DNA of 64,000 nucleotides from Smithellaceae bacterium (lineage in GTDB: Bacteria > Desulfobacterota > Syntrophia > Syntrophales > Smithellaceae). A program made the position numbers and the translations under genes. Below are positions 2,553 through 23,511 of this stretch, in pieces. Location: the NCBI GenBank assembly GCA_030690945.1, contig JAUYFM010000033.1, positions 1 to 64,000 on the forward strand, given 5' to 3'. Each line of letters begins with the position of its first letter. Position 1 is the stretch's first letter. Under the pieces are notes generated by a model. The model was given only the letters and a program-made list of their open reading frames with translations, was not told the origin of the DNA and did not search any database.

Positions 2553-2647
2553 ATAAAAAAAATAAAGTCCGGTAAGGCAGGTCTTCGTCGGAATTTTATT
2601 CGGGCTTTAGGACCGAAAAAATGAACGGTATTGAGAGGAGGAAAATC

Positions 2648-4903: not shown

Positions 4904-5143
4904 ATGAGCGAGGACTTGAAAAAACAGATCGTCGACCTTTTTCACGAAAAATCCAAGGGTGACAAAAAGATGTTTTACATCCGGGACGTCACCAAATGGC
5001 TCCCCGACGTGGACCGGCATACCATTCATGATGCCGTGAAAGTACTGCTCGATGAGGGCGCGCTGGTGTACTGGTCAAGTGGCAGCTCAACATATCTCGT
5101 GCTGGCCGAATTCTTTCCGAAAGAAGAAGGATCGCGCTCTTAA
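4904..5143 (+). CDS. dsrD: DsrD, allosteric activator of DsrAB
   Basis: A 79-residue winged-helix protein starting MSEDLKKQIVDLFHEKSKG, with the conserved segment YIRDVTKWLPD. The start at 4904 lies just after the dsrB stop, with a GGGGGTG ribosome site. DsrD has been described as an activator of DsrAB in sulfate reducers. It is found with reductive, not oxidative, dsr systems, so it indicates that this operon reduces sulfite. Confidence 0.95.
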   Translation: MSEDLKKQIVDLFHEKSKGDKKMFYIRDVTKWLPDVDRHTIHDAVKVLLDEGALVYWSSGSSTYLVLAEFFPKEEGSRS

Positions 5144-6689: not shown

Positions 6690-7010
6690 ATGCCACAAAT
6701 TGAATTAGCAGGAAAAAAGTACGAAGTGGATGAAGACGGATTTCTTCAGGAACTCGATAAATGGAATGAAGAGTTCGCACAGGCTTACGCACACACAGAG
6801 GACATTGAAGGGACGCTCACGGAAGAACATTGGAAACTCATCAATTATCTGCGGAATTATTATCAGCAGTTCGGCATCGCGCCGATGATCCGAAAAATCT
6901 GTAAAGACCTGGGGATCGACATGAAGAAGCTCTATGAGCTCTTTCCGACCGGACCGGCCAAAGGCGCCTGCAAGCTGGCGGGCCTTTCAAAACCGACGGG
7001 GTGCGTATAA
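6690..7010 (+). CDS. dsrC: DsrC sulfur carrier
   Basis: A 106-residue DsrC with the full C-terminal arm: Cys94 and the penultimate Cys105 are separated by exactly ten residues and the protein ends PTGCV. These two cysteines carry the trisulfide made by DsrAB, which DsrMKJOP then reduces. The start follows an ideal CAGGAGG site. It is embedded between dsrN and the first dsrM-like gene. Having both cysteines identifies a true DsrC and not a TusE or a regulatory homologue. Confidence 0.98.
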   Translation: MPQIELAGKKYEVDEDGFLQELDKWNEEFAQAYAHTEDIEGTLTEEHWKLINYLRNYYQQFGIAPMIRKICKDLGIDMKKLYELFPTGPAKGACKLAGLSKPTGCV

Positions 7011-7038: not shown

Positions 7039-7980
7039 ATGGAAACGCTGATTATCTATCTGACCTATATAGCCTACGTGTTCATCGTTGCGGTGTACAC
7101 GATCAAGGTAGTGGGATGGCTGAGGATGCCGCCGCACATCCGGTGGGATCTTTACCCTGTGATCCATGAAAAGCATTACCACTATGGCGGTTCCTATTAC
7201 GAACAACAGGAATGGTGGACAAAGCCCCGTCCCAAAAATCGCTGGCGAAGCCTTTTGTATTCGTTAAAAGACAATTTATACATGGGCCAGTACTATAAAA
7301 GCAAACCCCTCTACTGGCTGTTTCTTCTACCGTGGCACCTGGGATTCATTCTCATTATTACATTCCATATCCTCTGCTTCTTTGCAGCCACGGCCATGCT
7401 CGGAGGATTGGATATCGGAGCTGCCTCAGGTCAACTCGCGGGGGTGGCGTTTTACTATCTCCTGCTTGTAACAGGAGGGATCGCTTTCGTGACGGGAACA
7501 TTCGGGAGTATCGGCATGGGAATTATCCGTTTGGCCGACCGTTCTTTGAGGAAATACTCCATGCCGATGAATTTTTTCAATTATCTCTTCTTCCTGGTTG
7601 TCTACGGCAGCGGCCTTTTTGCCTGGCTAGTCCTGGATCCAACCCTGGATGAATACCGCACGTACTGGTTGGGGCTGATCACTCTGTCCCCGCCTGTGCT
7701 TCACCCGATGACATTACTGCATATCATCCTGTTCGATATCTTCCTCATCTATCTGCCGTTTACCCGTTCGACGCACTACATCACGCGAATACTTGCTTAT
7801 TTCTTCATCCGCTGGGATGACGAGCCGAATCAGCGTGGCAGTAAGATGGAGGGGCAGATCAATGCTCTCCTGGCACAGAAAGTTTCCTGGGAAGGACCGC
7901 ATATCGCAACGGGAAAGACCTGGGTTGAGGTGGCCATAGAACCGGGATTCCCCGATGCGAAAAAAGATCATAAAGGATAG
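7039..7980 (+). CDS. DsrM-like membrane b-type cytochrome (extra copy)
   Basis: A 313-residue membrane protein with about five to six hydrophobic segments, resembling the NarI/DsrM/HdrE cytochrome b family that oxidises quinol. Histidines lie in the membrane segments (for example LPWHLGF and ITFHILCF). It has a distinctive soluble N-terminal loop rich in His and Tyr after the first helix. It is paired with the dsrK-like gene 3 bases downstream. It is more divergent than the second dsrM at 9579, which is the canonical one. It probably forms a second MK-type quinone/heterodisulfide module; its partner substrate is unknown. Confidence 0.8.
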   Translation: METLIIYLTYIAYVFIVAVYTIKVVGWLRMPPHIRWDLYPVIHEKHYHYGGSYYEQQEWWTKPRPKNRWRSLLYSLKDNLYMGQYYKSKPLYWLFLLPWHLGFILIITFHILCFFAATAMLGGLDIGAASGQLAGVAFYYLLLVTGGIAFVTGTFGSIGMGIIRLADRSLRKYSMPMNFFNYLFFLVVYGSGLFAWLVLDPTLDEYRTYWLGLITLSPPVLHPMTLLHIILFDIFLIYLPFTRSTHYITRILAYFFIRWDDEPNQRGSKMEGQINALLAQKVSWEGPHIATGKTWVEVAIEPGFPDAKKDHKG

Positions 7981-7983
7981 TCA

Positions 7984-9588
7984 ATGAATAAGATGATCCA
8001 TATTAAAGATTTCAGCCGCCCCGGCGGACAATTAACGGAGATAGATCCCGCGGAGCTTATGCCCCTGCCGCCGCCATACGATAAGATGGAGAAAGCGCCG
8101 ATTAGACAGCTCACGGATGACCAACGCAAGCGTATGGATGCGTCGCTCGACGGCATCGTCGCTATCGGCCTTACTCCGCCTGCAACCCCGGAGGAGGAGA
8201 AGGCTTTCATTGAAAAATTCCTTGCCGGTCTGGAAAAACTCTTCACGGTAGAAAATAACTGGACGTTTCTCCAGCCGCTTGTCCATACGCTGGATTACTG
8301 CGTAAAGTGTCAAGTTTGCTCGGACGCCTGCCCGACATACGAGGCCAGCGGCCATCAGGAGATCTATCGCCCTACGATGCGACCGGAGATTCTCCGCAGA
8401 ATCATCAGCACTTACATCAAAAAGGAAAATTCCCTGTTAAGAAAGTTTAAGGACAGCGATATCGATCTTAACTGGCAGACACTGGCAAGGCTTGCGGAGC
8501 TTGCCTACAGGTGCACTCTCTGCAGGCGTTGCGCTCAAGTCTGTCTCTTGGGTTGCGATAACGCGCTCATCAGCAGGGAGATACGGAAAATATTCAGCCA
8601 GCAGATGGGAATCGCCCCCAAGGAGATCCACGAGAAGGGTTCCGTCCAGCAGCTCAAAGTCGGTTCCTCGACGGGGATGACGCCTGCGGCCCTGAGGAAT
8701 GTTTTGGAGTTTGCCGAAGAGGAAATCGAGGAGAAGACGGGCCGGAAGATCAAGATTCCTGTGGACAAGAAAGGGGCGGATATGCTTCTCATCCACAACG
8801 CCGGTGAATTCCTGGCCTGGCCGGAAAACCTGGAGGCTTTTGCCATCATTCTGGATGCCGCCGGTGTGGACTGGACAATCTCCTCCGAGATTACCGGTTA
8901 CGACTCCGTGAATTACGGCGTCTGGTACGACGACTTCCAGTTCGCCCGGGTGGCTATTCGCCAGTCCCAGGTAGCAAAAAATCTGAGTGTCCGCAAGATC
9001 TCCCTGGGGGAATGCGGCCATGCTCATAAGGCGGGTATCGTTATTGCCGACCGTGTTCTCACGGGCGACCTCAACATCCCCAGGGAAAGTATCCTTCCGC
9101 TTTTGGAAGATATCGTTTTAAGCGGAAAGATTAAGCTGGATCCCAGCCGAAATAATTTCCCCGTAACGCTCCATGATCCATGCAACATGGTCAGACTGAT
9201 GGGCATCGTTAAGCCGCAACGGCGGATTCTGGAGAAGATCTGCCCGCAATTCCGGGAAATGACGCCCCACGGTGTTGAAAATTATTGCTGCGGTGGTGGA
9301 AGCGGTTTCGCCATCACGCAATCGACTAATTTCCCCGATTGGCGTTCCGCCGTTTCCGGGCGGATGAAACTCAAACAGATTCTTGATGCCTTCCAGGATG
9401 TTCCCGGGGCGGAAATCAAGAAGTATGTCTGCGCACCTTGTTCGAATTGCAAAGGTCAGTTCCGCGACATGTTCGAATATTATGGCGTCTGGAAAAAATC
9501 AGGGATTCTCTATGGTGGATTGGTGGAGTTGATCGTCAACGCCATGGTGGATATAGAAAAACCCTTTATTCAGTGGGAATGGCATTGA
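7984..9588 (+). CDS. DsrK/HdrD-like iron-sulfur protein (extra copy)
   Basis: A 534-residue HdrD-family protein. It has two ferredoxin-type motifs (C106, C109, C112, C116 and C177, C180, C183, C187). The C-terminal CCG domain is complete: C400, C435-C436, and CAPC at 483-486. The second ferredoxin motif reads CTLCRRCAQVCLLGC, with Leu where Pro is usual and a further Cys. Unlike canonical DsrK, it keeps the CxxC that completes the noncubane cluster site in HdrD. That suggests a thiol-disulfide or trisulfide reductase that works with the preceding cytochrome. DsrC is a plausible substrate, but this is inference. Confidence 0.85.
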   Translation: MNKMIHIKDFSRPGGQLTEIDPAELMPLPPPYDKMEKAPIRQLTDDQRKRMDASLDGIVAIGLTPPATPEEEKAFIEKFLAGLEKLFTVENNWTFLQPLVHTLDYCVKCQVCSDACPTYEASGHQEIYRPTMRPEILRRIISTYIKKENSLLRKFKDSDIDLNWQTLARLAELAYRCTLCRRCAQVCLLGCDNALISREIRKIFSQQMGIAPKEIHEKGSVQQLKVGSSTGMTPAALRNVLEFAEEEIEEKTGRKIKIPVDKKGADMLLIHNAGEFLAWPENLEAFAIILDAAGVDWTISSEITGYDSVNYGVWYDDFQFARVAIRQSQVAKNLSVRKISLGECGHAHKAGIVIADRVLTGDLNIPRESILPLLEDIVLSGKIKLDPSRNNFPVTLHDPCNMVRLMGIVKPQRRILEKICPQFREMTPHGVENYCCGGGSGFAITQSTNFPDWRSAVSGRMKLKQILDAFQDVPGAEIKKYVCAPCSNCKGQFRDMFEYYGVWKKSGILYGGLVELIVNAMVDIEKPFIQWEWH

Positions 9589-10583
9589 ACGCAATGAAGA
9601 ACATCAGCATATCACTGATTGCCGTTTTAATCCTGGCGGCACTCCCCACAGGCTTGTCCACACTCGGCTTATCCGGCCTCATAACGAACATCCTGCCGTA
9701 TGTCGCCATAGCCGTTTTTCTGATCGGCTTCGTCTTTCGTATTCTCTTGTGGGCCAAATCACCCGTCCCCTTCCGCATTCCTACGACTTGCGGCCAGGGG
9801 AAATCGCTGCCCTGGATCAAGTCCAATCCGGTAGAAAGCCCGGCAGGGTATTGGGGTGTGATTGCAAGAATGGCCCAGGAAATATTCCTGTTTCGGTCGC
9901 TCTTCCGGAATACGGACGTGGCGATTGTTGACGGACGGCCCGTTTACGGCAGTGCCAAATGGCTCTGGTTTTGTGGTCTTCTGTTCCACTGGTCGTTGCT
10001 GATTATCGTGCTTCGACACCTGCGCTTTTTCGTCGAACCGATCGCCCCCTGGATTGGCGCTCTCTCCGCTCTGGACGGATTCTTCGAGATCGGCATCCCA
10101 ACTCTTTATCTGAGCGATGCCGCCATCCTCGTTGGGCTGACATTCCTTTTTCTGCGCCGGGTGGTTGTCCCGCAGGTGCGTTATATCTCCTTGTTCACCG
10201 ATTATTTTTCACTGCTGCTGATCGCCGGCGTCGTAAGCACAGGCCTCCTGATGAGGCACTTTTCCCCCGCCGATCTCAACGCGGTAAAAACCATGGCAAT
10301 GGGCTGGGTGACCTTTTCGCCCGTTGTTCCTCAGGGGATCAACCCTGTTTTTTACATCCACCTGTGCTTCGTCTTCGTCCTTCTGGCCTGGTTTCCCGCA
10401 AGCAAGCTGATGCACGCCGGAGGTGTCTTTCTCAGCCCGACCCGCAACCTGGCCAACGACAGCCGGATGCGACGGCATATCAATCCCTGGAATGCCCCCG
10501 TCAAAGTTCATACCTATGAAGAATACGAAGATGAGTTCCGGGACAAAATGAAGGCATCGGGATTACCCGTGGAAAAGGAGTAG
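9579..10583 (+). CDS. dsrM: DsrM, membrane cytochrome b of DsrMKJOP
   Basis: The canonical DsrM of about 334 residues, with five or more membrane helices and conserved segments such as FRIPTTCGQGKSLPWI, GLLFHWSLLIIVLRHLRFF and NPVFYIHLCFVFVLLAWFP. It oxidises menaquinol and passes electrons to DsrK. The start is uncertain. ATG at 9579 overlaps the preceding gene by 10 bases, and ATG at 9594 is also possible; upstream in-frame sequence is only overlap with the previous gene. It is followed two bases later by dsrK. Confidence 0.92.
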   Translation: MALNAMKNISISLIAVLILAALPTGLSTLGLSGLITNILPYVAIAVFLIGFVFRILLWAKSPVPFRIPTTCGQGKSLPWIKSNPVESPAGYWGVIARMAQEIFLFRSLFRNTDVAIVDGRPVYGSAKWLWFCGLLFHWSLLIIVLRHLRFFVEPIAPWIGALSALDGFFEIGIPTLYLSDAAILVGLTFLFLRRVVVPQVRYISLFTDYFSLLLIAGVVSTGLLMRHFSPADLNAVKTMAMGWVTFSPVVPQGINPVFYIHLCFVFVLLAWFPASKLMHAGGVFLSPTRNLANDSRMRRHINPWNAPVKVHTYEEYEDEFRDKMKASGLPVEKE

Positions 10584-10585
10584 CC

Positions 10586-12181
10586 GTGTCGTTTGCCAAG
10601 ATACCCAAACCGGATCAGTTGATCAAAATCCGCTACGCGCCACCCGAGACGGCCTGGATGAACACACCTGTCGATTTTCGTCCTGGAACGTGGAGCTACA
10701 GCGGGGCTGCGAAAAACCTGACCTATCTGGACCTTCCGAACCCGCGAGCCTGGCAGCCCGCGGACGAAGACTGGAAACTGCCGGACAACTGGCAGGCCAT
10801 TATCTTAAACGGTATGAAGGAGCGCCTGGAAAAACATCGCTCCTTCCGCCTCTTCATGGACGTCTGTGTCCGGTGCGGCGCCTGTGCCGATAAATGCCAT
10901 TTCTATATCGGCTCCGGCGATCCGAAAAACATGCCGGTGCTGCGGGCTGAACTTTTGCGCTCCGTTTATCGCCGCTACTTTACGACGTCGGGTAAGGTTT
11001 TCGGTAAACTCGCCGGCGCCCGCGACCTGACCGTCGACGTTTTGAAAGAATGGTTTTACTACTTCTATCAATGCACGGAGTGCCGCCGGTGTTCAGTCTT
11101 CTGCCCCTTCGGCATCGACCAGGCGGAGATCACGATGATGGGCCGGGAACTTCTCAATCTTGTGGGGTGCAACATCAACTGGGTTATCGAACCTGCGGCT
11201 AACTGTTTCCGGACGGGCAATCACCTGGGCATTCAGCCCGGCGGCATCAAGGACATGCTCGAATTCATGGCCGACGACATCGAAGACCGGACGGGTATCC
11301 GGGTAAACGTGCCCATCAATAAGAAAGGCGCCGATATTCTCTTTGTCACACCGTCAGGCGATTACTTTGCCGATCCGGGGACGTTTACCTGCATGGGTTA
11401 CCTGATGCTCTTCCACGAGATCGGCCTGAATTATACCTTCAGCACCTACGCCTCCGAAGGAGGAAACTTCGGTCTTTTCACGTCCGCTGAAATGGTCAAG
11501 CGCCTCAACGCCAAGATCTACGCTGAAGCAAAACGGCTCGGCGTCAAGTGGATTCTGGGCGGTGAATGCGGCCACATGTGGCGGGTCATTCACCAGTACA
11601 TGGACACGATGAACGGCCCCGCCGATTTTCTTCAGGAACCGATCTCTCCCATCACGGGAACCCGCTTCGAAAATGCCCGCGCCACGAAGATGGTCCATAT
11701 CACGGAATTTACCGCCGACCTCATCCGGAATGGAAAGCTGAAACTCGATCCCCAAAGAAACGACCATATCAGGCTTACCTTTCACGATTCATGCAATCCC
11801 GCACGGGCCATGGGGCTTTTCGAAGAACCGAGGTATATCATTCAAAAAACCTGCAATCATTTCTTTGAAATGGCTGAAGATACCATCCGGGAAAAGACTT
11901 TATGCTGCGGCGCCGGCGCGGGTCTCGGAAATGATGAAAACATGGAGATGCGGATGCGCGGTGGCATGCCGAGGGCCATGGCCGTGAAAAAGGTTGTGGA
12001 AAAGCACGATGTGAATCGTCTGGGCTGCATCTGCGCCATTGACCGGGCGACGCTGACGTCGCTCATGGATTACTGGGTGCCGGGGGTGACGGTTATGGGC
12101 GTCCACGAACTTTTAGCCAACGCGCTGGTCATGACGGGAGAAAAGGAACGAACGACGGATTTGAGGGGCGACAACATTTAG
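10586..12181 (+). CDS. dsrK: DsrK, catalytic iron-sulfur subunit of DsrMKJOP
   Basis: A 531-residue canonical DsrK. The N-terminus and first ferredoxin region match the family closely (FMDVCVRCGACADKCHFYIG, C94-C104). The second motif is CTECRRCSVFCP (C163-C173). The C-terminal cluster site has C403 and C440-C441 but then CICAIDR (C481, C483) in place of CxxC, as is usual in DsrK. It receives electrons from DsrM and is thought to reduce the DsrC trisulfide on the cytoplasmic side. A palindromic element separates its stop from dsrJ. Confidence 0.95.
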   Translation: MSFAKIPKPDQLIKIRYAPPETAWMNTPVDFRPGTWSYSGAAKNLTYLDLPNPRAWQPADEDWKLPDNWQAIILNGMKERLEKHRSFRLFMDVCVRCGACADKCHFYIGSGDPKNMPVLRAELLRSVYRRYFTTSGKVFGKLAGARDLTVDVLKEWFYYFYQCTECRRCSVFCPFGIDQAEITMMGRELLNLVGCNINWVIEPAANCFRTGNHLGIQPGGIKDMLEFMADDIEDRTGIRVNVPINKKGADILFVTPSGDYFADPGTFTCMGYLMLFHEIGLNYTFSTYASEGGNFGLFTSAEMVKRLNAKIYAEAKRLGVKWILGGECGHMWRVIHQYMDTMNGPADFLQEPISPITGTRFENARATKMVHITEFTADLIRNGKLKLDPQRNDHIRLTFHDSCNPARAMGLFEEPRYIIQKTCNHFFEMAEDTIREKTLCCGAGAGLGNDENMEMRMRGGMPRAMAVKKVVEKHDVNRLGCICAIDRATLTSLMDYWVPGVTVMGVHELLANALVMTGEKERTTDLRGDNI

Positions 12182-12380: not shown

Positions 12381-12785
12381 ATGAAAAAAAATAAATGGGG
12401 CTTAATCATATTGGGACTTGTGATCTTTATCATCGTGATCACTTTCCCCTTCTGGTACGGCAAAGGGAAAACATCCCCGGCACCAACGCTGAGCCTCGAT
12501 ACGCCCGCCATTGCGCAATTGAAAGAAAAGCGCTGCGTGGAAGACACATCGTTCATGCGCGAAAGCCATATGAAGTTCCTCGGCACCTGGCGCGACGGAG
12601 CTGTCCGCGAAGGAAAGCGTCTTCACACGGCACGCGACGGACGTGTTTTCGAGGTAAGCCTTTCCGGCACCTGCCTGAAATGCCACAGCAACAAGGAACA
12701 GTTCTGCGACCGGTGCCACAACTATCTGGGCGCCAAGCCTTCCTGCTTCAGTTGCCATAACATTCCCGGGGAGGTAAAAAAATGA
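12381..12785 (+). CDS. dsrJ: DsrJ, triheme cytochrome c
   Basis: A 134-residue protein with one N-terminal membrane helix (about 6-26) and three heme-binding CxxCH motifs: CLKCH (98-102), CDRCH (109-113) and CFSCH (122-126). This is the DsrJ pattern of a membrane-anchored periplasmic triheme cytochrome in the DsrMKJOP complex. The ATG at 12381 is preferred over an in-frame TTG six bases upstream. It overlaps dsrO by four bases. Confidence 0.93.
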   Translation: MKKNKWGLIILGLVIFIIVITFPFWYGKGKTSPAPTLSLDTPAIAQLKEKRCVEDTSFMRESHMKFLGTWRDGAVREGKRLHTARDGRVFEVSLSGTCLKCHSNKEQFCDRCHNYLGAKPSCFSCHNIPGEVKK

Positions 12786-13570
12786 CGACGAACCGCAGAG
12801 AATTTTTGAAAATAGCGGGGGTGTCCACACTCTCCCTGATCGCGCCTGCAATCGTCTGCCCGGCCTGGGCCAAAGACAAAATTATCCCCGTAAGCAATTC
12901 CCCGGAGGCCTTGTCACCATCAAAGGCTCTCACGGCCAAACGCTGGGCGATGGCCATAGATGCTTCAAAATGCCCCGCTGATTGCGTGGATTGCATCGCA
13001 GCGTGTCACGCAACACACAACGTCCCCGGTTTCGGCAACCCCAAGGACGAGGTCAAATGGATCTGGCAAGAAAAGTTTGCCGCCGCCTTTCCCAATGAGA
13101 GCCATGCGTATCTTAGGGAATCTCTCCAAAAGCAGCAATTGCCTGTTTTGTGCAACCATTGCGCCAATCCGCCCTGTGTCCGGGTTTGCCCTACGAAGGC
13201 CACGTTCCAGAGGCACGACGGCATCGTGATGATGGACTATCACCGCTGCATCGGTTGCAGGCTTTGCATGGCCGCCTGTCCCTACGGCGCAAGAAGCATG
13301 AACTACCGGGACCCCCGGCCTTTTATCGCCAGAATAAACCCGGATTACCCGACGCGAACCAAAGGCGTTGTGGAGAAATGCAACTTCTGCCAGGAAAGGC
13401 TGGCCAAAGGCCTTGGGCCTGCCTGCGTTGTGGCCTGTAAGGAAAAGGCCCTGGTTTTCGGAGATATGGAAAATCCCCAATCGGAAATCCGTCTTCTCCT
13501 GGAAAAACGTTTTAACCTGCTGAGGCGTGCAAGCCTAGGAACTAAGCCGCAGATTTATTATATTTTATGA
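12782..13570 (+). CDS. dsrO: DsrO, periplasmic ferredoxin subunit
   Basis: A 262-residue protein with a twin-arginine signal (NRREFLK at residues 4-10, then a hydrophobic core ending near PAWA). A ferredoxin region follows with several four-cysteine groups, such as CPADCVDCIAAC, CNHCANPPCVRVCP, CIGCRLCMAACP and CNFCQERL, enough for four [4Fe-4S] clusters. DsrO moves electrons on the periplasmic face between DsrP and DsrJ. It starts inside the end of dsrJ (ATGA overlap). Confidence 0.95.
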   Translation: MTTNRREFLKIAGVSTLSLIAPAIVCPAWAKDKIIPVSNSPEALSPSKALTAKRWAMAIDASKCPADCVDCIAACHATHNVPGFGNPKDEVKWIWQEKFAAAFPNESHAYLRESLQKQQLPVLCNHCANPPCVRVCPTKATFQRHDGIVMMDYHRCIGCRLCMAACPYGARSMNYRDPRPFIARINPDYPTRTKGVVEKCNFCQERLAKGLGPACVVACKEKALVFGDMENPQSEIRLLLEKRFNLLRRASLGTKPQIYYIL

Positions 13571-13577
13571 GGATATT

Positions 13578-14738
13578 ATGCTGGAAAAATCTCTGAAAGG
13601 CAGCCGCGGATACTGGATCTGGATCATCTTTTTACTGATTGTCGCCGCGATCGGGTTTTTCTTCTACCTTCGCCAGTTGGATTATGGGTTAGGCGTCACG
13701 GGGATGAGCCGGGACGTGTCTTGGGGGCTTTATATCGCCCAGTTCACCTTCCTGGTCGGCATTGCGGCTTCGGCGGTCATGCTCGTTCTTCCGTATTATC
13801 TTCATGACTACAAGGCCTTCGGAAAAATCACCGTCCTGGGTGAATTTCTGGCCGTTGCCGCCGTTATCATGTGCGTACTCTTTGTCTTCGTTGATCTCGG
13901 CCAACCCTCCCGTGTGATGAACGTCCTCTTGCATCCGTCGCCAACCTCGATTCTTTTCTGGGACATGATCGTCCTTTCCGGCTATCTCCTGATCAATATT
14001 TTTACCGGTTGGGTCATTCTGACCTGCAATCGCAAAGAAGTCCCGCCACCCGGCTGGGTCAAGCCGCTGATCTATCTCTCGATCCCCTGGGCCATCAGCA
14101 TCCACACGGTAACCGCTTTTATTTATGCCGGTCTTCCGGGAAGAAGCTTCTGGCTGACGGCGATTATGGCCCCCCGCTTTCTGGCCTCCGCCTTTGCCTC
14201 CGGCCCCGCCCTCTTGATTATCTTCTGCCTGATCTTAAAACGTTACGGGCGTTTTGACGCAGGCGAAAAAGCGATTCAGGCCCTCTCCAAGATCGTGGCC
14301 TATGCCCTCGCGACAAGCATCTTCTTTGTCCTTGTGGAACTGTTCACCGCCTTTTACAGCCAGATTCCGGAACAGGCCCAGCACTTTCTTTATCTTTTCA
14401 CTGGTCTGGAAGGCCACACGAAACTCGTTCCCTGGATGTGGACATCCGCAGTTCTTGCCTTTGCCGCCCTGGGAATGCTGATCATCCCGCCAATCCGCCG
14501 CAACGATGGATGGCTCGCCGTAGCCTGCGTTTTTGTGTTTGTTTCGCTCTGGATTGAGAAGGGCCTCGGTCTGGTCGTGACCGGTTTTATCCCCTCGCCA
14601 TTGGAGACCATCACCGAATACGTTCCGACGGGAGCGGAAATCGCCATCACCCTCGGTGTTTGGGCGATTGGATTCATGATTTTGACGATCCTTTATAGGA
14701 TATTTATTACCGTGCACGACGAAAAGGAAAACCCATGA
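13578..14738 (+). CDS. dsrP: DsrP, NrfD-type membrane subunit
   Basis: A 386-residue polytopic protein of the NrfD/PsrC family with about ten membrane helices. The segments SRDVSWGLYIAQFTFLVG and PSRVMNVLLHPSPTSILFWD are typical of DsrP. It exchanges electrons with the quinone pool and forms the second membrane part of DsrMKJOP. Its last codons overlap the start of the next gene (ATGA), so that gene is translationally coupled to the dsr operon. Confidence 0.95.
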   Translation: MLEKSLKGSRGYWIWIIFLLIVAAIGFFFYLRQLDYGLGVTGMSRDVSWGLYIAQFTFLVGIAASAVMLVLPYYLHDYKAFGKITVLGEFLAVAAVIMCVLFVFVDLGQPSRVMNVLLHPSPTSILFWDMIVLSGYLLINIFTGWVILTCNRKEVPPPGWVKPLIYLSIPWAISIHTVTAFIYAGLPGRSFWLTAIMAPRFLASAFASGPALLIIFCLILKRYGRFDAGEKAIQALSKIVAYALATSIFFVLVELFTAFYSQIPEQAQHFLYLFTGLEGHTKLVPWMWTSAVLAFAALGMLIIPPIRRNDGWLAVACVFVFVSLWIEKGLGLVVTGFIPSPLETITEYVPTGAEIAITLGVWAIGFMILTILYRIFITVHDEKENP

Positions 14739-16432
14739 ATGATAAGAAGAGGATCATTGTCATCGGGGCCTCCGCTTGCGGTGCGAAAGCCGCATCGCGC
14801 ATAAAACGGCTCCGTCCCGACTATGCCGTTACCATCCTGGACCAGGGGCAGTACATTTCCTATGCCGCCTGTGGTATCCCGTATTATCTTTCCGGGAAAG
14901 TCCGCGATCTGGACGACCTGCTGAAAACCACATACGGCAGAATCCGCGATGTGCAATATTTCAAAGATCTGAAGGATATTACAATTCACACGAACGTAAG
15001 GGTCCTCGATATCGACAGGAGCGCCCGCAGGGTCGGTGCAACAAACATGAGCACCGGCGAATCTCTCTCCTTCGAATATGACACGCTGGTCCTAGCAGCG
15101 GGCGCATCGCCGAAGATGCCCCCGATTCCGGGATCGAATCTAAAGGGGGTATACCACTTGACCCGCATGGAAGACGCAGCGGCAATCGCCCAGGAGATTC
15201 ACGATCACGTGCATGGTTCCGCCGTGATCGTCGGTGGGGGATTTATCGGCGTCGAGGCCGCCGAGGCACTGATCCTCAAGAAATGGAACGTGACGCTGCT
15301 GGAACGCGAAAGCCAGCTCTTTCCGGGAATGCTCGACTTCGAAATTTCAGCGCTGATCCAGGAACATTTTTATGAGAACAGGGTGGATTCGGAATTCAAC
15401 GCCGAAATCATTTCCTTCGAGGGAGAGGAAGGGAAGATTAACAAGGTCATCACCAAAAATAACGAATATCGCGCCGATATAGTCATTGTCGCAACAGGCC
15501 TCAGACCCAATACGGCGATTGCGGAGGCAGCCGGCCTTGCGTTGGGGGATACCCGGGCGCTCAAGGTCAATGCACTCATGCAGACCAGTGATCCGGCCAT
15601 TTATGCCGGTGGGGATATGGTCGAAAACAAGCATATTATTACGGGAAAACCGTGTTACATTCCCCTCGGTTCCACTGCAAACAAACACGGCCGGGTCATT
15701 GCCGACAATATCTGCGGCATGAATTCGAAGTTTCCCGGCATACAGGGCACTTTCGTGTGCAAAGCGTTTGAATACAATGTAGGTTCCACCGGTATCACGG
15801 AGACACAGGCAAAGCAGATGGGATTGGATGCCTTCGCCCTTTCTGTCTGTGGATTCGATAAGGCCCATTATTACCCCGACAGTCAAATCATGGCGTTGAA
15901 AATCATATTTGAAAATGGCACCCACAGGCTTTTGGGTCTGCAGGCCGTGGGAAAAGGCGATGTCGCCCGCCGTATTGATGTGGCCGCTACGGCCATGCGT
16001 CTCGATGCAACCCTTCAGGATATCATTTATTTGGATATGGCCTATGCCCCTCCATTTTCACCGGCTCTGGATGTCTTTGTCACCGCTCTCAATGTTGCAG
16101 AAAATGTGAACTCTGGTATACTGAAACCAATAACAGTTATGGAGGCCAAGAGACTTCTGGACCATGAAGACGCTGTGTTGATGGTGGACGTCAGATCGGA
16201 TTTGGAATTTCGGCGCGCGCATGTCGAGCATCCCAAGGTCATCAATATTCCCCTCGACGAACTGCATCAAAAAATTGACGAACTACCGAGGGATAAGAAA
16301 ATCATTTGTACCTGCCAGCTCGGGCTGAGGGGTTTTTCGGCCCAAAGAATCCTGGACGCGGCCGGTTTCCCCGACGTCTGCACTCTCGAAGGCGGCCTGT
16401 TCCTCTGGCCATGGAAAGAAGACATGATATGA
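14735..16432 (+). CDS. CoA-disulfide/persulfide reductase with C-terminal rhodanese domain
   Basis: A 565-residue fusion. Residues 1-445 are a FAD- and NAD(P)-dependent disulfide reductase of the CoA-disulfide reductase group, with GASACGAKAASR for FAD and the single redox cysteine in SYAACGIPYY (Cys46). Residues about 465-560 are a rhodanese domain with its active cysteine near 527 in CQLGLRG. This layout is that of CoADR-RHD and of the NADH-dependent persulfide/polysulfide reductase Npsr. Start overlap with dsrP ties it to sulfite respiration. It could recycle persulfide or trisulfide thiols or supply sulfide from S0; the role here is inferred. Confidence 0.88.
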   Translation: MNDKKRIIVIGASACGAKAASRIKRLRPDYAVTILDQGQYISYAACGIPYYLSGKVRDLDDLLKTTYGRIRDVQYFKDLKDITIHTNVRVLDIDRSARRVGATNMSTGESLSFEYDTLVLAAGASPKMPPIPGSNLKGVYHLTRMEDAAAIAQEIHDHVHGSAVIVGGGFIGVEAAEALILKKWNVTLLERESQLFPGMLDFEISALIQEHFYENRVDSEFNAEIISFEGEEGKINKVITKNNEYRADIVIVATGLRPNTAIAEAAGLALGDTRALKVNALMQTSDPAIYAGGDMVENKHIITGKPCYIPLGSTANKHGRVIADNICGMNSKFPGIQGTFVCKAFEYNVGSTGITETQAKQMGLDAFALSVCGFDKAHYYPDSQIMALKIIFENGTHRLLGLQAVGKGDVARRIDVAATAMRLDATLQDIIYLDMAYAPPFSPALDVFVTALNVAENVNSGILKPITVMEAKRLLDHEDAVLMVDVRSDLEFRRAHVEHPKVINIPLDELHQKIDELPRDKKIICTCQLGLRGFSAQRILDAAGFPDVCTLEGGLFLWPWKEDMI

Positions 16433-16580
16433 TTTGGTCAGGACAGATTGCAGCCTGCAAGGTATGGACAGGTCTTCTCCGGTTGCATGGACATTCCGCA
16501 CACATTCGGGACGTATTCAGCAGAGGGAGCAACCGATGAGAGCAGGAAAGTTTGATACCTAAAAATCAATGGAGTGTTCA

Positions 16581-17780
16581 TTGAAGATTCTAGTCTTAAA
16601 TTGCGGCAGTTCATCGCTTAAATACAAACTCTTTGAGCTGGGGGACAACAACGTCCTGGCCCAGGGGCAGGCGGACCGTATCGGCATGACCGACGCCGTC
16701 TTTCAACATGATGCGCAAGGGCACGAAACCTTTCTGAACAAAAAACCGCTCGCCAATCATCACGAAGCCGTGCATGCTCTGTTGACCCATCTTGTCGACG
16801 GTCAGCAGGGAATTATGACGGAGATGAGCGAAATTGGCGGCGTCGGACACCGGGTGGTTCACGGCGGAGAACATTTCCGCACCTCCGTTGTCGTTGATCC
16901 CGCAATACGGGAAATCCTCGAGACAACCAAGAAACTCGCCCCGCTCCATAACCCGCCGAACCTCATGGGAATTGATGTCTGCACAAGCCTTATGCCCGGC
17001 GTACCCCAGGTGGCTGTCTTCGACACAGCTTTCCACCAGACCATGCCGGCGTATGCATACACCTACGCGATCCCTTATCATTACTACATAGAGGATCATG
17101 TCCGCCGCTACGGCTTCCACGGCATCTCACATCGTTATGTAGCCTGCCGGACGGCGGAAATCCTGGGGAAGAATATGGAGGCGTTGAGGATCATCACCTG
17201 CCATCTCGGAGCAGGCTCGAGTCTCTGCGCTGTGGCGGCAGGAAAATCCCTGGATACCTCCATGGGTTTTACACCTTTGTCGGGTCTCGTTATGGGGACA
17301 CGCTCGGGTGATATCGATCCGGCGCTTGTTTCCTTCCTTGTGGAGAAGGAGCAGAGTTCTCTGACGCAGGTAATGGACATGCTGAATCGCGAGAGCGGCG
17401 TTTTCGGCATCTCCGGCATATCGCCCGATTTTCGCGATCTGGAAAAGGAAGCCTCGCTCGGCAATGAGCGGGCACGTCTGGCGCTTGATGCCTATGCCTA
17501 TAGTGTGGCCAAGGGGATTGGTTCCCTGATTCCGGCCGCAGGCGGTCTTGATGTTCTTGTCTTTACCGCGGGGGTCGGCGAACACTCACCAAACATGCGG
17601 CGGCGGATCTGCGCATTTCTTTCCTGGCTGGGCATTTCCCTGGATGAAGAGAAGAATCTGAACGGCATTCTTGAAGAGGATATCTCCCTGTCCGGGACAA
17701 AGGTAAAAATTCTCGTCGTTCCAACGGATGAGGAAAAAATGATCGCCGAGGAAACTCGGGCGGTTTTGCAAAAACAATAA
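16581..17780 (+). CDS. ackA: Acetate kinase
   Basis: A 399-residue acetate kinase from the TTG at 16581. Here [18 protein letters not shown] aligns with the usual family start and GGAG lies seven bases before. An in-frame ATG at 16569 would add four residues. Family motifs are visible: [48 protein letters not shown] and [10 protein letters not shown]. It makes ATP and acetate from acetyl phosphate. No phosphotransacetylase is nearby; the next gene, xsc, makes acetyl phosphate directly, so the two form a substrate-level phosphorylation pair. Confidence 0.96.
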
Positions 17781-17805
17781 CGTTAAACAGACTGGAGGTT
17801 TTAAA

Positions 17806-19566
17806 ATGAAAAAAGTAAAAATGACACCCAGCGAAGCGATTGTCGAGACATTGCTGGCGGAAGGGGTGGATCACGTATGCGGCATAGTGGGTTCCGCCTT
17901 TATGGACATGCTCGATCTTTTTCCGGCTGCGGGGATCAAATTTATACCCGTCCGCCATGAACAGAGCGCCGCTCATATGGAAGACGCCTATTGCCGGGTT
18001 TCGGGCCGGTGCGGTGTCGTCACAGGCCAGAACGGCCCCGGCATAACCAATATGGTCACGTCGGTTGCCGCGGCAAACATGGGCCATACGCCCCTAGTCA
18101 TTATTTCCCCGTCGGCGGGGACGCCCACCATCGGCTGGGACGGCTTCCAGGAATGCGACCAGATGTCCGTCTTTAAGGCCGTCACGAAAGCCGTCGTCCG
18201 CGTTCCCCATCCTAAAAGAGCAGCTGATTGTCTGAGAACGGCCTTCCGCATCGCTTATGCCGACCGGGGCGCTGTTCTTTATGATATTCCCCGTGATTAT
18301 TTCTACGGAGAGATCGAAGAAACCATCCTGAAACCCTCCCAATACCGGGTAGATGCCAGGGGATGCGGCTCCATGGAACAATTGAACAGGGCTGCCGAAC
18401 TTCTGTCCAAAGCCAAAAATCCTGTGATCGTTTCCGGCCGTGGGGTCGTCGATGCCAACGCGCTGGACATCGTCAAGGCCATCGCCGAACACCTGACTGC
18501 ACCCGTGGCGGTCACCTATCTCCATAATGACGCCTTCTACGGAAATCATCCTTTATCCATCGGCCCCATCGGCTATATGGGTTCCAAGGCGGCCATGAAG
18601 ACGCTGGCCAAGGCTGACGTCATGCTCGCCATCGGGACAAGGCTTTCCGTCTTCGGAACGCTTCCCCAGTATGACATCAATTATTTCCCGGAGAATGCCA
18701 AGATTATCCAAATCGACATCAATCCCAAACACATTGCCCGAACACACCCCATCGAGGTCGGAATCATCGGCGATGCCAAGGAAGCCACAGTGGAAATCCT
18801 GAAGCGCCTGAAGGCCCTGGACCGAGGCCGCAAGCCCGATGCCAAACGCCTGGCAGCCGTGGCCAGGGAAAAGAAGATCTGGGAAAAAGAGATTGTCGAT
18901 TTAGCCATGGTTGACGGCAATCCCATGAACCCAAGAAGAGTCTTGCTCGAAATCTCCAAAGCTCTGCCGGACAATGCCATCGTGTCCACTGATATCGGCA
19001 ATGTTGCTTCGACAGCCAACAGCTACCTCAAGTTCAACCAGTCGAGACGGCATATCGCCGCCCTGACCTTTGGCAACACCGGATTTGCCTATCCGGCGGC
19101 CCTCGGGGCGCAGATTGCTTGTCCCAAAGCGCCGGTCATCGCTATTGTCGGTGACGGCGCCTGGGGGATGAGTCTCCACGAGGTCAGCACCGCCGTGGAG
19201 CACAATCTGCCCGTTGTGGCCTGTGTTTTCCGGAACATGTGGTGGGGGGCCGAGGCGAAAAACCAGGTGGACTTCTATAACAATCGGTTCGTCGGTGTGG
19301 ACATTCCCACGCCGGAGAGTTTTGTTCCCGTCGCCAAGGCGATGGGAGCCAACGGCGTCCAGGTCAGTCGGCCCGAGGACATCAAGGAAGCCTTTCTGTC
19401 CTGTATCAAAAGCCGCAAGCCCACTGTGCTGGAATTTCTGGTGGACGGTAAGCAATTGGCCCCGCCCTTCAGGAAGGACGCACTGGCGTTGCCGACTCGA
19501 TTCCTGCCCAAGTACGCTCATCTGGATCATCACAACTGGTACAAAGGAGGCGTCAATGATTTATAA
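17806..19566 (+). CDS. xsc: Sulfoacetaldehyde acetyltransferase
   Basis: A 586-residue ThDP enzyme. Xsc converts sulfoacetaldehyde and phosphate to acetyl phosphate and sulfite. Family resemblance is strong at the N-terminus ([35 protein letters not shown]), at [11 protein letters not shown], at [13 protein letters not shown] and at [14 protein letters not shown] near residue 472. The ThDP-activating Glu is in RHEQ (E52) and the Mg/ThDP motif begins GDG near 449. This is closer to Xsc than to acetolactate synthase. It has an AGGAGG-type site, follows ackA by 25 bases, and ends overlapping the SDR gene. Its sulfite product is the DsrAB substrate. Confidence 0.93.
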
Positions 19567-20395
19567 AGACTTGAAAGGAAAAACAGCCATCGTAACGGGG
19601 TCCGGCAAAAAAACCGGCATCGGTTATGCGATTGCGGAAAAACTGGCTGCGGCAGGATGCAACATTATCATTGCCGATCTGGGCAAACCACCCGTGCCGG
19701 GAGAGTCCCTGAAGTCCGCAACGGGTGAAGAAATGGAGGTGATTGCCAAAGAATTGGCGAAGACTTACGGCGTTCGAACATTATCGGTGGCCGTTGATAT
19801 TACGGATGCGAGCGCCATCGGAGCCATGGTGGACACCATCAAAGGCGCCTTCGACCACATTGACATTCTTTGCAACAATGCGGGAGCATCCTTCGGCGTC
19901 CCGAATACAATCCTGAGTTATGACGAAGCGGCCTGGATGAAGACCATCGACGTGAATCTGTTTTCCGTCTTCCGCATCTCGCGGGCCATCATTCCCCTGA
20001 TGACGGGCAAACCGGCAGCCATCATCAATACGGCATCCCGGGCGGGCAAGGTGCCTCCCATCTTCAACAGCGCCTACGCGGTGGCCAAGGCGGGCGTCAT
20101 CATGTTGACCAAAACCATGGCCAAAGAACTGAGCGGCGGCGGAATCCGCGTTAACGCTATCTGCCCGGGACAGATTGCCACGGATCTGGAAAAGTGGCGT
20201 TTTGGTCTGGAAGCGTCATTTTTCGGCACGACTGTTGAGGAGCGGGAAAAGGAAATGTGCAAGACCATTCCCCTGGGATACATCGGTCTTCCGGGGGACG
20301 CCGCCGATCTGGTGGCCTTTCTGGCTTCCGACGCCTCGCGGTATATTACCGGACAGGCCATCAATCTCGATGGCGGTCAGTGCATGGAATTATAA
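19556..20395 (+). CDS. Short-chain dehydrogenase/reductase
   Basis: A 279-residue classical SDR. The start at 19556 has a perfect AAAGGAGG site and overlaps the xsc end by 11 bases. The NAD(P) motif is [10 protein letters not shown] (14-23), NNAG is at 107-110, and the catalytic set is Ser161 and YAVAK with Tyr174 and Lys178. The end, [13 protein letters not shown], is typical. Being coupled to xsc, it may oxidise isethionate, sulfolactate or another hydroxysulfonate toward sulfoacetaldehyde. The family is too broad to fix the substrate from sequence. Confidence 0.88.
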
Positions 20396-20428
20396 CCATA
20401 AAAACATATCGTTTCAGGAGAAGATACT

Positions 20429-22126
20429 ATGGATAAAATTATTGGCGGTAAGCTTGTTGCGGATGCCTTAATCGAGCGGGGCGTCGATTACATTTTTACG
20501 TTGAGTGGCGGGCATATTACGCCCATTTACCAATTTCTGGAAAACACAAGTATCACGATCTTTGACACACGCCATGAACAGGCGGCCGTCTTCATGGCTG
20601 AAGCCTGGGCCAGGATGAATCGCAAACCGGCAGTGGCGATGGTCACGGCGGGACCGGGATTCACCAATGCCCTCTCCGGTATCGCCAGCGCCAGGCTGTC
20701 CAACGCTCCGGTTATTCTCATTGCCGGCTGCGTGGGGCTCGAGACCGCCGAGAAGCTTGATCTTCAGGATATGACCCAGCTTCCGGTCATCGAACCCATG
20801 GTTAAAAAAGCACTGGTCTGCCATATCCCGGAACGGATTCCTGAATTCATCGACATCGCCTTCCGTACAGCCATGAGCGGCCGACCCGGACCGGTCTATC
20901 TGGAGCTTCCCTGTGATGTCCTGAACGCCACTGTGGACATGACCAAGGTCAAAAAGATGCATACCACGCTCACAACCAAACCCGTTGACCGGGAAAATAC
21001 AAGGAAGGTTGTTGATCTCCTGAAGGCGGCTAAAAATCCCATCGTCATCGGTGGAAGCGGTATATGGTATGCCGATGCGGGAAAAGAGTTTGTTGAGTTC
21101 GTGGAGAAGATAGGGATACCGGCCTTTACAGCGGGAGCGGGACGGGGTGTCTTACCCGATACTCACCCTCTTTGTTTTGAATCATCTCTGGCCATAAGGC
21201 CCGGCGGCGCCATGCTGGCTCTGATGAGTTCCGACCTGGTGCTTTTCTTGGGCGGCAGGCTCAGCCTGTTCTATATTTTCGGAGAAATATTTCCTGCGGC
21301 AGCGAAATTTATCCAGGTCGATATCGCACCGGATGAGATAGGAAGAAACCGCACGGTTGATCTCGGGATCGTCAGTGATACGAAGGCATTCCTGAAGGAG
21401 CTCAACAGTATTCTGGATGAAAAAGCCATCGGCGACAAACTCAAAAAGCAATACCAGCCCTGGGTGGACACGGTCCGAAAGGCGGATTTAGAAGGCAAAG
21501 ACCAGGCCAAAGCCATGTGGGAATGCAATACTCTGCCCATCCACCCGATGCGGCTGGCCAAAGAAGTAAACGATTTTATGAACCGGGAAGATGACATCGT
21601 CGTTGCCGACGGCGGCGATACATCGACTTGGATGGGCATGACCCGGACGGTCAAAAACGGTGGAACCTATCTGGATTACGGTCTTTACGGATGCCTCGCG
21701 GTGGGGCTTCCCTATGCCATTGCGGCCAAGCTGAAGCATCCGGATAAGCGCGTTCTCGCCATTATGGGTGACGGTTCTACCGGCTTTAATTTTATGGAAT
21801 ACCATACCGCCATCCGCAAGAAAATCCCGATTGTCGTGGTCATCGGCAACGATCAGGCCTGGGGCATGATCATGCACAGCCAGCAACTGCGCCTGGGTCA
21901 CAATATCCCGAACGGGACTGAGCTGGGCTGGGTCGATTACCATAAGATGGTTGAGGTCATGGGCGGCTTTGGCATCTGTGTGGAGAAACCGGAAGATATT
22001 CGACCGGCACTGGAAGCAGCTTTTGCTTCCGGAAAGACAGCCTGCGTCAACGTCAAGGTAGATCCGGCCATCATCAGTCCGGGCAGCGTGGCTCTCGCCA
22101 ATCTTGGCGGATACAAAAGCAGTTGA
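20429..22126 (+). CDS. ThDP-dependent enzyme, acetolactate synthase/benzaldehyde lyase-like
   Basis: A 565-residue ThDP enzyme with the three-domain layout of acetolactate synthase. The catalytic Glu is in DTRHEQ (E50) and the ThDP motif starts GDGS at 447. The segments LSGGHITPIYQFLE and NGTELGWVDYHKMVE recall benzaldehyde lyase and acyloin lyases rather than amino-acid-pathway synthases, and no small regulatory subunit gene follows. In this operon it could decarboxylate sulfopyruvate to sulfoacetaldehyde, or cleave or form a C-C bond in a sulfo-acyloin. Both are hypotheses. It is clearly not a duplicate of Xsc. Confidence 0.82.
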   Translation: MDKIIGGKLVADALIERGVDYIFTLSGGHITPIYQFLENTSITIFDTRHEQAAVFMAEAWARMNRKPAVAMVTAGPGFTNALSGIASARLSNAPVILIAGCVGLETAEKLDLQDMTQLPVIEPMVKKALVCHIPERIPEFIDIAFRTAMSGRPGPVYLELPCDVLNATVDMTKVKKMHTTLTTKPVDRENTRKVVDLLKAAKNPIVIGGSGIWYADAGKEFVEFVEKIGIPAFTAGAGRGVLPDTHPLCFESSLAIRPGGAMLALMSSDLVLFLGGRLSLFYIFGEIFPAAAKFIQVDIAPDEIGRNRTVDLGIVSDTKAFLKELNSILDEKAIGDKLKKQYQPWVDTVRKADLEGKDQAKAMWECNTLPIHPMRLAKEVNDFMNREDDIVVADGGDTSTWMGMTRTVKNGGTYLDYGLYGCLAVGLPYAIAAKLKHPDKRVLAIMGDGSTGFNFMEYHTAIRKKIPIVVVIGNDQAWGMIMHSQQLRLGHNIPNGTELGWVDYHKMVEVMGGFGICVEKPEDIRPALEAAFASGKTACVNVKVDPAIISPGSVALANLGGYKSS

Positions 22127-22197
22127 GGTATGGGTTATTACAACGCAACCAAAGAAAGCGAAATGGTATAACCTTTTAAATCAGGTAAGGAGGTCCC

Positions 22198-23493
22198 ATG
22201 AATAACGTTACAGCACCCAGGGAATATAAGTTGTCAAAGCGCAGCTCCTATTATATCTTCGCGCTGCTGTTTCTGCTGTATTTCTTCGATTATGTGGATC
22301 GAACGATCGTGACATCCCTTGCTCCTTTTATTCAAAAGGAGTGGGGCCTTACGGACACACAGTCCGGCTTGCTCATGTCGGTCGTCTACTGGTCCATCGT
22401 CGTCTTTGTCTTTCCCGTTTCGATCCTCGTGGATCGCTGGAGCCGGAAAAAGACCATTGGCGTTATGGCCCTTTTCTGGACTGCCGCTACGATAGCCTGC
22501 GCTTTCACTAAAACCTTTCCCCAGTTGCTGGTGGCCCGCTCCGCCATCGGGATTGGCGAGGCCGGATATGCCCCCGCCGGTACGGCCATGCTTTCCGGTT
22601 TGTTTCCTCCGGAAAAACGTTCCCGCATGATGGGTCTCTGGAATATTTCTATTCCACTGGGCATCGCCGTCGGGATTGGCCTCGGCGGTTTCATAGCCAC
22701 ACATTGGGGCTGGCGGCATGCCTTCGGCCTGGTGGCGATTCCCGGGGCAATCGTGGCCATTCTTTTTTTCTTCGTCAAGGATTATAAAACGGTGGACCTG
22801 GTCAAAACCGATACGCGCAATACCGGTCAAAACCCGGTCAAGATGACTAAGATGGATATCTTCCGGGAATTTATTCATACCCCTTCTCTGATTTTCACCA
22901 ATCTCGGGTTTGTCGGTTGCGTGTTTGCTAACAATGCGATCATCTTCTGGCTTCCCTCTTATTTGCACCGTACGACAGGTGTCTCCATCAGTGAGGCCGG
23001 CATGAAAACGAGTGTGCTCATGATCCTGGCGCTCATCGGCCTGCCTCTGGGAGGATGGTTGGCCGATATGTGGTTTAAGAAACGGGTGACAGCGAGGCTG
23101 CTGTTTCCCGCGATTACGACAGCCCTCAATGCCATCTTCATCTTTATCGCTATTTCCTTCCTTCAGGGACAGGCGCAATATCTGACGCTGATCGGAATGG
23201 GCATTCTGGCTTCCGCATTCGCCCCGGCGGCCATCATCGCCACGCAGGAGGTGATTCACCCGGGCCTTCGGGCAATTTCCTACTCCGTTTGCGTCGTTGT
23301 TCAAAATCTCCTGGGGGCCTCCCTGGCGCCCATTGTGATCGGGAAGATATCCGACCTCTATGGTATCCAGGTGGCTATGTCTATTCTGCCCGTTTTCCTT
23401 GTGGCCTCGGCCCTGTTGTTTTTTGCCGGATCTTTTTTTTACAAGAAGGATCTGGATAATGTGCAAAAGATCACTTTGGAATGTGAGGACTGA
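22198..23493 (+). CDS. MFS transporter
   Basis: A 431-residue major facilitator protein with twelve predicted helices. An N-terminal signature segment, DYVDRTIVTSLAPFIQKEW, is followed by the loop DRWSRKKTIG between helices 2 and 3. It resembles organic-anion and spinster-like members. A TAAGGAGG site precedes its ATG. Lying between catabolic genes of the same strand, it is the best candidate for uptake of the sulfonate substrate. No TRAP or ABC sulfonate system is present in the window. Confidence 0.85.
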   Translation: MNNVTAPREYKLSKRSSYYIFALLFLLYFFDYVDRTIVTSLAPFIQKEWGLTDTQSGLLMSVVYWSIVVFVFPVSILVDRWSRKKTIGVMALFWTAATIACAFTKTFPQLLVARSAIGIGEAGYAPAGTAMLSGLFPPEKRSRMMGLWNISIPLGIAVGIGLGGFIATHWGWRHAFGLVAIPGAIVAILFFFVKDYKTVDLVKTDTRNTGQNPVKMTKMDIFREFIHTPSLIFTNLGFVGCVFANNAIIFWLPSYLHRTTGVSISEAGMKTSVLMILALIGLPLGGWLADMWFKKRVTARLLFPAITTALNAIFIFIAISFLQGQAQYLTLIGMGILASAFAPAAIIATQEVIHPGLRAISYSVCVVVQNLLGASLAPIVIGKISDLYGIQVAMSILPVFLVASALLFFAGSFFYKKDLDNVQKITLECED

Positions 23494-23511
23494 AATAAGG
23501 AAAGAAAATCT

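Follow-up and report, generated by a model that had tools for sequence, protein, structure and literature searches.

What is a rhodanese-fused flavoprotein gene doing at the end of a cluster for sulfite reduction (dsr)? The question is raised by a window of 64,000 nucleotides (the whole stretch of DNA that was analysed; Smithellaceae bacterium, GenBank assembly GCA_030690945.1, contig JAUYFM010000033.1, positions 1 to 64,000 of the forward strand), in which such a gene overlaps dsrP and precedes ackA and xsc. The kind of enzyme is known; what is new is its genomic setting, a probable persulfide reductase built into a sulfite-respiration cluster. The features on which the argument turns are the following.

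14735-16432, + strand: Npsr-like flavoprotein with a C-terminal rhodanese, 565 amino acids (Pfam, NCBIfam, solved relatives and alignment); marked residues are Cys46, the loop TTYGRIRD (65-72), Glu190, Cys372, Tyr379/Tyr380, Tyr437 and the rhodanese Cys527.
13578-14738, + strand: dsrP, its last 4 bases within the start of the persulfide reductase gene (NF045798, 485.4 bits; cut-off 350).
16569-17780, + strand: ackA (acetate/propionate kinase), 136 bp past the persulfide reductase gene (TIGR00016, 465.9 bits; cut-off 293.4).
17806-19566, + strand: xsc, sulfoacetaldehyde acetyltransferase, the probable sulfite source (TIGR03457, 852.4 bits; cut-off 676.4).

The open reading frame (ORF) at 14735-16432 is intact, with an ATG start and no internal stop, and it shares the bases ATGA with dsrP: its start codon lies at 14735 and the dsrP stop TGA at 14736-14738, a gap of -4 bp. 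The original prediction had described this overlap and a rhodanese-fused enzyme of the coenzyme A (CoA)-disulfide reductase (CoADR) type. The coordinates and the dsrP family score (485.4 bits) bear out the former, and the Pfam domain set (Pyr_redox_2, Pyr_redox_dim and a C-terminal Rhodanese domain at residues 470-558) agrees with the latter.

The junction between dsrP and the persulfide reductase gene is not due to chance, because it was found in nine of the 11 genomes of the order Syntrophales that have a close ortholog. The search covered 155 genomes of the order and took as orthologs proteins with at least 69% identity and E <= 1e-180, a definition that short fragments at contig ends would escape; the 11 genomes it returned include that of the window. 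In nine of them (G000, G102, G531, G528, G523, G524, G114, G108 and G072; here and below G, C and L mark our handles for genomes, contigs and loci) the ortholog lies directly 3' of dsrP, with a gap of -4 bp in seven loci and +9 bp in two, and the next gene downstream is ackA in six and xsc in two, the contig ending in one. Confinement of the adjacency to the one genome, which would have counted against the original prediction, is not what was seen: it recurs in nine genomes, which span two families with identity down to 72%. A contig scan also gave five relatives, with dsrP directly upstream in all five; these are not counted twice, and four of them share a 200-base probe with G531, G528, G523 and G524. 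A literature search pairing CoADR or Npsr with dsr terms gave, among the matches listed, no link of the enzyme to dsrP, subscription papers being mostly outside its scope.

The ortholog also occurs more often in genomes with xsc. The dsrP search covered 119 of the 155 genomes and found DsrP above cut-off in 33, of which 11 were counted as bearing xsc (eight above cut-off, G072 by a partial match, G114 by one cut by a contig end and G031 by one in two pieces). The ortholog was present in 6/11 dsrP genomes with xsc as against 1/22 without (Fisher 0.0025), and adjacency in 5/11 as against 0/22 (Fisher 0.0019), both values being descriptive and uncorrected for kinship. We infer that the persulfide reductase gene is co-transcribed with the dsr genes. 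A pattern scan found no terminator-like site between it and ackA (16433-16568); over 13300-20500, terminator-like patterns exceeded those in shuffles (15 vs 8.2, standard deviation 2.5), and a promoter scan gave 5 sites vs 5.0 expected by chance.

Outside the order, among 395 genomes drawn from the phylum, the arrangement was not seen in the places examined. Homologs at E <= 1e-135 occurred in 37 genomes outside the order, with identity at most 45%; 28 of these genomes bear DsrP and none showed adjacency (contig breaks could hide some), the homolog and DsrP sharing a contig in five of the 28, the nearest about 47 kb apart. Conversely, dsrP was found at E <= 1e-100 in 240 of the 395 genomes, and the best 30 dsrP places, all outside the order, had no such gene within 1.5 kb downstream, the stretch being shorter in three (L134 ~0.7, L143 ~0.6 and L147 ~1.1 kb). 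Both outside-order sets include G475, G404, G144, G300 and G275. Adjacency as a general trait of sulfate reducers is rejected as far as examined (0/28 and 0/30).

By analogy with characterised relatives, the enzyme is likely a persulfide reductase of the Npsr type. Its best solved relative is Archaeoglobus fulgidus NoxA-3/Npsr (AfNpsr; 6pfz), at 512.8 bits across residues 6-558, and enzymes of Shewanella loihica, Bacillus anthracis and Enterococcus faecalis are further solved matches. The pairing that marks an Npsr, a single active-site cysteine in a reductase binding flavin adenine dinucleotide (FAD) and NAD together with a cysteine-bearing C-terminal rhodanese, is present. In an alignment with homologs and three solved relatives, Cys46 and Glu190 are conserved in 11/11 close orthologs, and Tyr437 and the rhodanese Cys527 in all ten that reach that far. 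The covering loop of the AfNpsr type (TTYGRIRD, residues 65-72) reads TTYGR[IV]RD in nine of the 11, with TTDGIVRD in L009 and TAYGGIRD in G072. In the tree, which left out rows L041 (same record as L006), L059 and L064-L069, the 11 orthologs form one clade with support 100/100, and AfNpsr joins at 96/87.

The original prediction had also named CoA-disulfide reduction as an activity, and a true CoA-disulfide reductase acting in thiol balance is a competing reading, since CoA-disulfide reductase is the name of the three best NCBIfam matches and Cys46 and the tyrosines are conserved. We nevertheless consider it very unlikely. All three models (TIGR03385, NF007123 and NF010037) score below cut-off, at 412, 374 and 253.4 bits vs 578.8, 458 and 394, and the closest characterised relative points elsewhere: AfNpsr uses NADH specifically and acts on the persulfides of cysteine, glutathione and CoA as well as on polysulfide, though not on the disulfides tried, its CoA-disulfide activity was undetectable, and its covering loop, present here too, lies over the bound CoA and is absent from CoADR structures (PMC7969121). 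The NADH link to thiol-bound sulfur that had been put forward is, by analogy, the chemistry of the enzyme's family, while nothing was found in favour of a suggested protection of CoA from sulfite.

What, then, would a persulfide reductase do beside dsrP? A DsrC trisulfide is an intermediate of sulfite reduction, and persulfides, polysulfide and CoA persulfide (CoA-SSH) can form from such sulfur and thiols. The reading we favour, with confidence a little better than even, is that an NADH-dependent, CoA-assisted persulfide reductase of the Npsr type serves as an accessory clean-up arm that turns Dsr-derived sulfane sulfur into H2S. Xsc would free sulfite from sulfoacetaldehyde, and DsrAB, DsrC and DsrMKJOP would reduce it; the rhodanese Cys527 would take up sulfane sulfur, tightly bound CoA would carry it as CoA-SSH to Cys46 beside FAD, and NADH would reduce the CoA-bound sulfur there to H2S. 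Sulfur that emerges near the Dsr reaction as persulfide, polysulfide or CoA-SSH would in this way be converted to H2S at the expense of NADH, sulfur would be recovered, and CoA-SSH would be kept low beside acetyl-phosphate metabolism. The gene, its junction, their recurrence and the conserved residues are directly seen in the sequences; the chemistry and cofactors are read across from relatives, and we infer the physiological substrate and role. In the parts of the literature available, DsrAB reduces sulfite, DsrC releases sulfide and DsrMKJOP passes electrons to DsrC (PMC10591310), the E. faecalis enzyme CoAPR works by a swinging-arm mechanism in which both cysteines are required, and a figure concerns CoASSH affecting Pta (PMC9405070).

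Several observations weigh against this reading. At the level of the enzyme, most of the more distant homologs in the alignment carry an insert as long as the covering loop and S. loihica Npsr has no loop, and therefore the loop is not diagnostic of Npsr; AfNpsr is placed in the tree by a meeting of long branches; and the glutamate expected to bind the NADH ribose, Glu190, is followed by Arg191 where AfNpsr has Met, so that, judged from the residues, the preference for NADH is not certain. At the level of the locus, a + strand terminator-like pattern lies at 14566-14584, inside dsrP, and in two of the 11 genomes (G062 and G068, the latter without an xsc match) the ortholog lies away from dsr. 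In six relatives (G062, G014, G031, G003, G023 and G007), moreover, dsrP and xsc lie close together and the gene does not stand between them, the order being dsrP-ackA-xsc in G062, G014, G003 and G023 and dsrP-xsc in G031. Of the six, only G062 has a close ortholog elsewhere, and more distant rhodanese-fused homologs occur in G014 (38%) and G003 (43%). Because of these six relatives, the persulfide reductase is accessory, not obligatory, to the dsr cluster. The membership of the dsr operon claimed in the original prediction accordingly holds as co-directional linkage, with the junction in nine of 11 ortholog genomes, though the gene is not an obligatory part. In G007 (L081:10899-11960), a Tdh-like dehydrogenase fills the slot between dsrP and ackA-xsc that the persulfide reductase gene occupies in other genomes.

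The two displaced orthologs also bear on the possibility that the protein is a general reactive-sulfur defence enzyme, standing in the operon by history and co-expressed with, but unconnected to, Dsr chemistry. Their contexts (G062 C76 and G068 C39) gave no functional clue, the neighbours being an alcohol dehydrogenase, a GGDEF protein, an alpha/beta hydrolase and an IrrE-type peptidase domain in the first, and metallophosphoesterase, von Willebrand A and arylsulfotransferase domain matches together with ORFs without matches in the second. Such locations, the patchy presence of the gene and the place of E. faecalis CoAPR in a persulfide-sensing cst-like operon, as given in the available part of PMC9405070, would suit a defence enzyme, which we hold to be conceivable but unlikely given that the junction is kept in nine genomes of two families, among orthologs down to 72%, and that the enzyme type was apparently recruited a second time.

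This second case is found in G010, from another family of the order, where a CoADR-rhodanese protein only 34% identical to that of the window is encoded in the same direction as dsrC and dsrM2, between the two. The subfamily, found in six of the 155 genomes (E <= 1e-190), branches apart from the clade of 11 orthologs in a tree with five of its members, and within dsr it occurs only in G010; on sequence grounds this is a separate recruitment of the enzyme type into dsr. This one clear case suggests that Dsr may benefit from a CoADR-rhodanese enzyme of either subfamily. Four further subfamily genomes, besides G010 and G091, had none of the queried dsr genes in flanks of up to 1.5 kb. G091 itself was considered as a further dsrP-CoADR pair and set aside, its 36-37% homolog lying about 0.5 kb past dsrP with other sequence between and a cut at the contig end, which is weak support.

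The position beside dsrC in G010 raises the question of whether DsrC is itself the sulfur donor. The rhodanese cysteine would then take sulfur from a DsrC persulfide or trisulfide and NADH would complete the reduction, giving a cytoplasmic route beside DsrMKJOP. The ATGA junction with dsrP in seven of the nine adjacent loci and the G010 insertion would agree with this, as would Cys372, which lies near the active-site tyrosines in sequence: all 11 orthologs have it, within SVCGFDKAH[YF]Y, and no other row printed has a cysteine at this column, although six of them (L090, L099-L101, L103 and L108) have one a position earlier. Yet neither the dsr operons of the six xsc relatives nor those inspected outside the order contain the gene, and in AfNpsr the covering loop limits access and is taken to favour small substrates (PMC7969121), which argues for these rather than DsrC; we regard the DsrC route as rather unlikely. 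Slightly less likely again, in our estimate, is the bolder proposal that sulfite respiration in some Syntrophales that respire organosulfonates has gained a branch fed by NADH, in which the enzyme takes DsrC sulfane sulfur to H2S, with sulfonate-derived NADH draining directly into Dsr and two distant subfamilies recruited separately, one after dsrP and one between dsrC and dsrM2. The gene had also been described as next to DsrC, which is imprecise for the window: dsrC (6690-7010) belongs to the same co-directional cluster but lies some 7.7 kb upstream.

That cluster runs in one direction as dsrABDNC-M2K2-MKJOP, the flavoprotein gene, ackA, xsc and genes for a short-chain dehydrogenase/reductase (SDR), a thiamine-diphosphate (ThDP) enzyme, a major facilitator superfamily (MFS) transporter and a zinc dehydrogenase. 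Its remaining members are as follows.

2621-3838, + strand: dsrA (TIGR02064, 562 bits; cut-off 392.85).
3840-4901, + strand: dsrB (TIGR02066, 533.7 bits; cut-off 341.5).
4910-5143, + strand: probable dsrD, start uncertain (position and conservation; no NCBIfam match at E <= 1e-10).
5159-6598, + strand: dsrN / CobB-type a,c-diamide synthase (TIGR00379, 447.8 bits; cut-off 261.4).
6690-7010, + strand: dsrC, with two cysteines kept in the C-terminus GACKLAGLSKPTGCV (PF04358, 130.6 bits).
7039-7980, + strand: dsrM2, a second DsrM-like membrane protein (Nitrate_red_gam, 30.3 bits; DsrM 26.2, below the cut-off of 300).
7984-9588, + strand: dsrK2, a second DsrK-like protein (NF045796, 327.4 bits, below the cut-off of 400).
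9600-10583, + strand: dsrM, start codon uncertain (NF038037, 469.1 bits; cut-off 300); the mechanical ORF starts at 9438 and the NF038037 match at its residue 63.
10586-12181, + strand: dsrK (NF045796, 739.7 bits; cut-off 400).
12381-12785, + strand: dsrJ, three CxxCH motifs (translation and orthologs; the overlapping ORF 12395-12760 is in the wrong frame).
12782-13570, + strand: dsrO (NF045797, 300.3 bits; cut-off 200).
19562-20395, + strand: SDR dehydrogenase, start uncertain (family match).
20429-22126, + strand: ThDP enzyme (family match).
22198-23493, + strand: MFS transporter (family match).
23512-24534, + strand: zinc-type alcohol dehydrogenase, Tdh-like (family match).

The sulfonate oxidation invoked in the original prediction has a counterpart in a sulfonate module, ackA-xsc, directly downstream of the flavoprotein gene. 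Among order genomes tested, aprA (E <= 1e-50) was found in one of 15 and sat (E <= 1e-20) in one of 17, G011 in both cases, and neither was found in the window genome or the other xsc-bearing genomes of the order (11 in all); sulfite in the xsc-bearing genomes therefore probably comes from sulfonates. In G011 (L089, C2:46137-51832) sat and aprA lie directly 3' of dsrP, in the place that ackA-xsc takes elsewhere, and hence this slot seems to hold whichever module makes the sulfite, sat-apr in G011 and ackA-xsc in the others. Past xsc, the order SDR, ThDP enzyme, (MFS), zinc dehydrogenase (window 19562-24534) also occurs in L008, L010, G108, G062, G014 and G031; in L006 the SDR, ThDP enzyme and zinc dehydrogenase follow xsc with no MFS match, the stretches covered for G003, G023 and G007 showed no SDR-ThDP-dehydrogenase set past xsc, and on C80 of G072 the gene order is different.

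The dsrM2-dsrK2 pair (7039-9588), under the family cut-offs, sits between dsrC and dsrMKJOP; relatives have at this place either a similar pair (77-98%; L006, L008, L168 and L175) or one that has diverged (about 24-35% and 32-62%). Upstream of dsrA lie a YeiE-like LysR regulator (237-1121, - strand) and a YeiH-like transporter (1340-2446, + strand), both below cut-offs. YeiE is a sulfite-responsive regulator, and with its relative preceding dsrA, sulfite-controlled expression of the dsr cluster is possible for that reason.

A CoADR-like paralog without rhodanese (G000:C54:42545-43852, L002) carries an in-frame TGA at precisely the codon of the active-site cysteine. Among 23 stretches read for paralogs of this type in the order, the site is TGA in 18 and Cys in three, with no match in two, and from these sequences a selenocysteine form is likely. 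No selenocysteine insertion sequence (SECIS) was shown at the L002 TGA, the 71 bases around it folding no better than shuffles (z 0.10). A CoADR-like class is already among the selenoproteins listed in the available part of PMC9312934.

Set beside known systems, which we compare through the available parts of the papers cited, the window enzyme most resembles A. fulgidus Npsr, with a full-length match and the same domains, NADH glutamate, both catalytic cysteines and a covering loop of TTYGAVR vs TTYGRIR here, although AfNpsr is without Cys372, Cys525 and Arg191. The comparison is of proteins only, the window gene being the one that overlaps dsrP and precedes ackA-xsc; the archaeal host, too, is a sulfite reducer, and not one that lives by S0 respiration (PMC7969121). 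S. loihica Npsr (3nta/3ntd) shares the domain order and catalytic residues but lacks the covering loop. E. faecalis CoAPR (8a56) and B. anthracis CoADR-RHD (3icr) likewise join an FAD reductase to a rhodanese and use CoA-carried sulfur, whereas the E. faecalis gene belongs to a cst-like persulfide-response operon (PMC9405070). DsrL, an NAD(P)H:acceptor oxidoreductase, would likewise tie the nicotinamide pool to Dsr proteins (PMC7596348) but is an iron-sulfur flavoprotein, and no Fe-S domain was found in the window enzyme (Pfam, E <= 0.001). Taurine respiration in Taurinivorans muris, of a different bacterial family, also has Xsc freeing sulfite, AckA making ATP and DsrAB-DsrC reducing sulfite (PMC10507020).

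In the part of PMC7969121 available, Npsr is proposed to act in sulfur respiration and its presence in the sulfite-reducing Archaeoglobus is called anomalous; the junction with dsrP and ackA-xsc and the insertion beside dsrC in G010 put this anomaly into a specific genomic context and point to DsrC as a partner that can be tested. A review, in its available part, describes the oxidoreductase that feeds DsrAB where DsrL is lacking as unknown (PMC10591310). The gene arrangement in these Syntrophales may point to a coupling of NADH to sulfite respiration, and the NADH-linked enzyme within the dsr cluster is a candidate for an oxidoreductase that would feed DsrAB, worth assaying as such.

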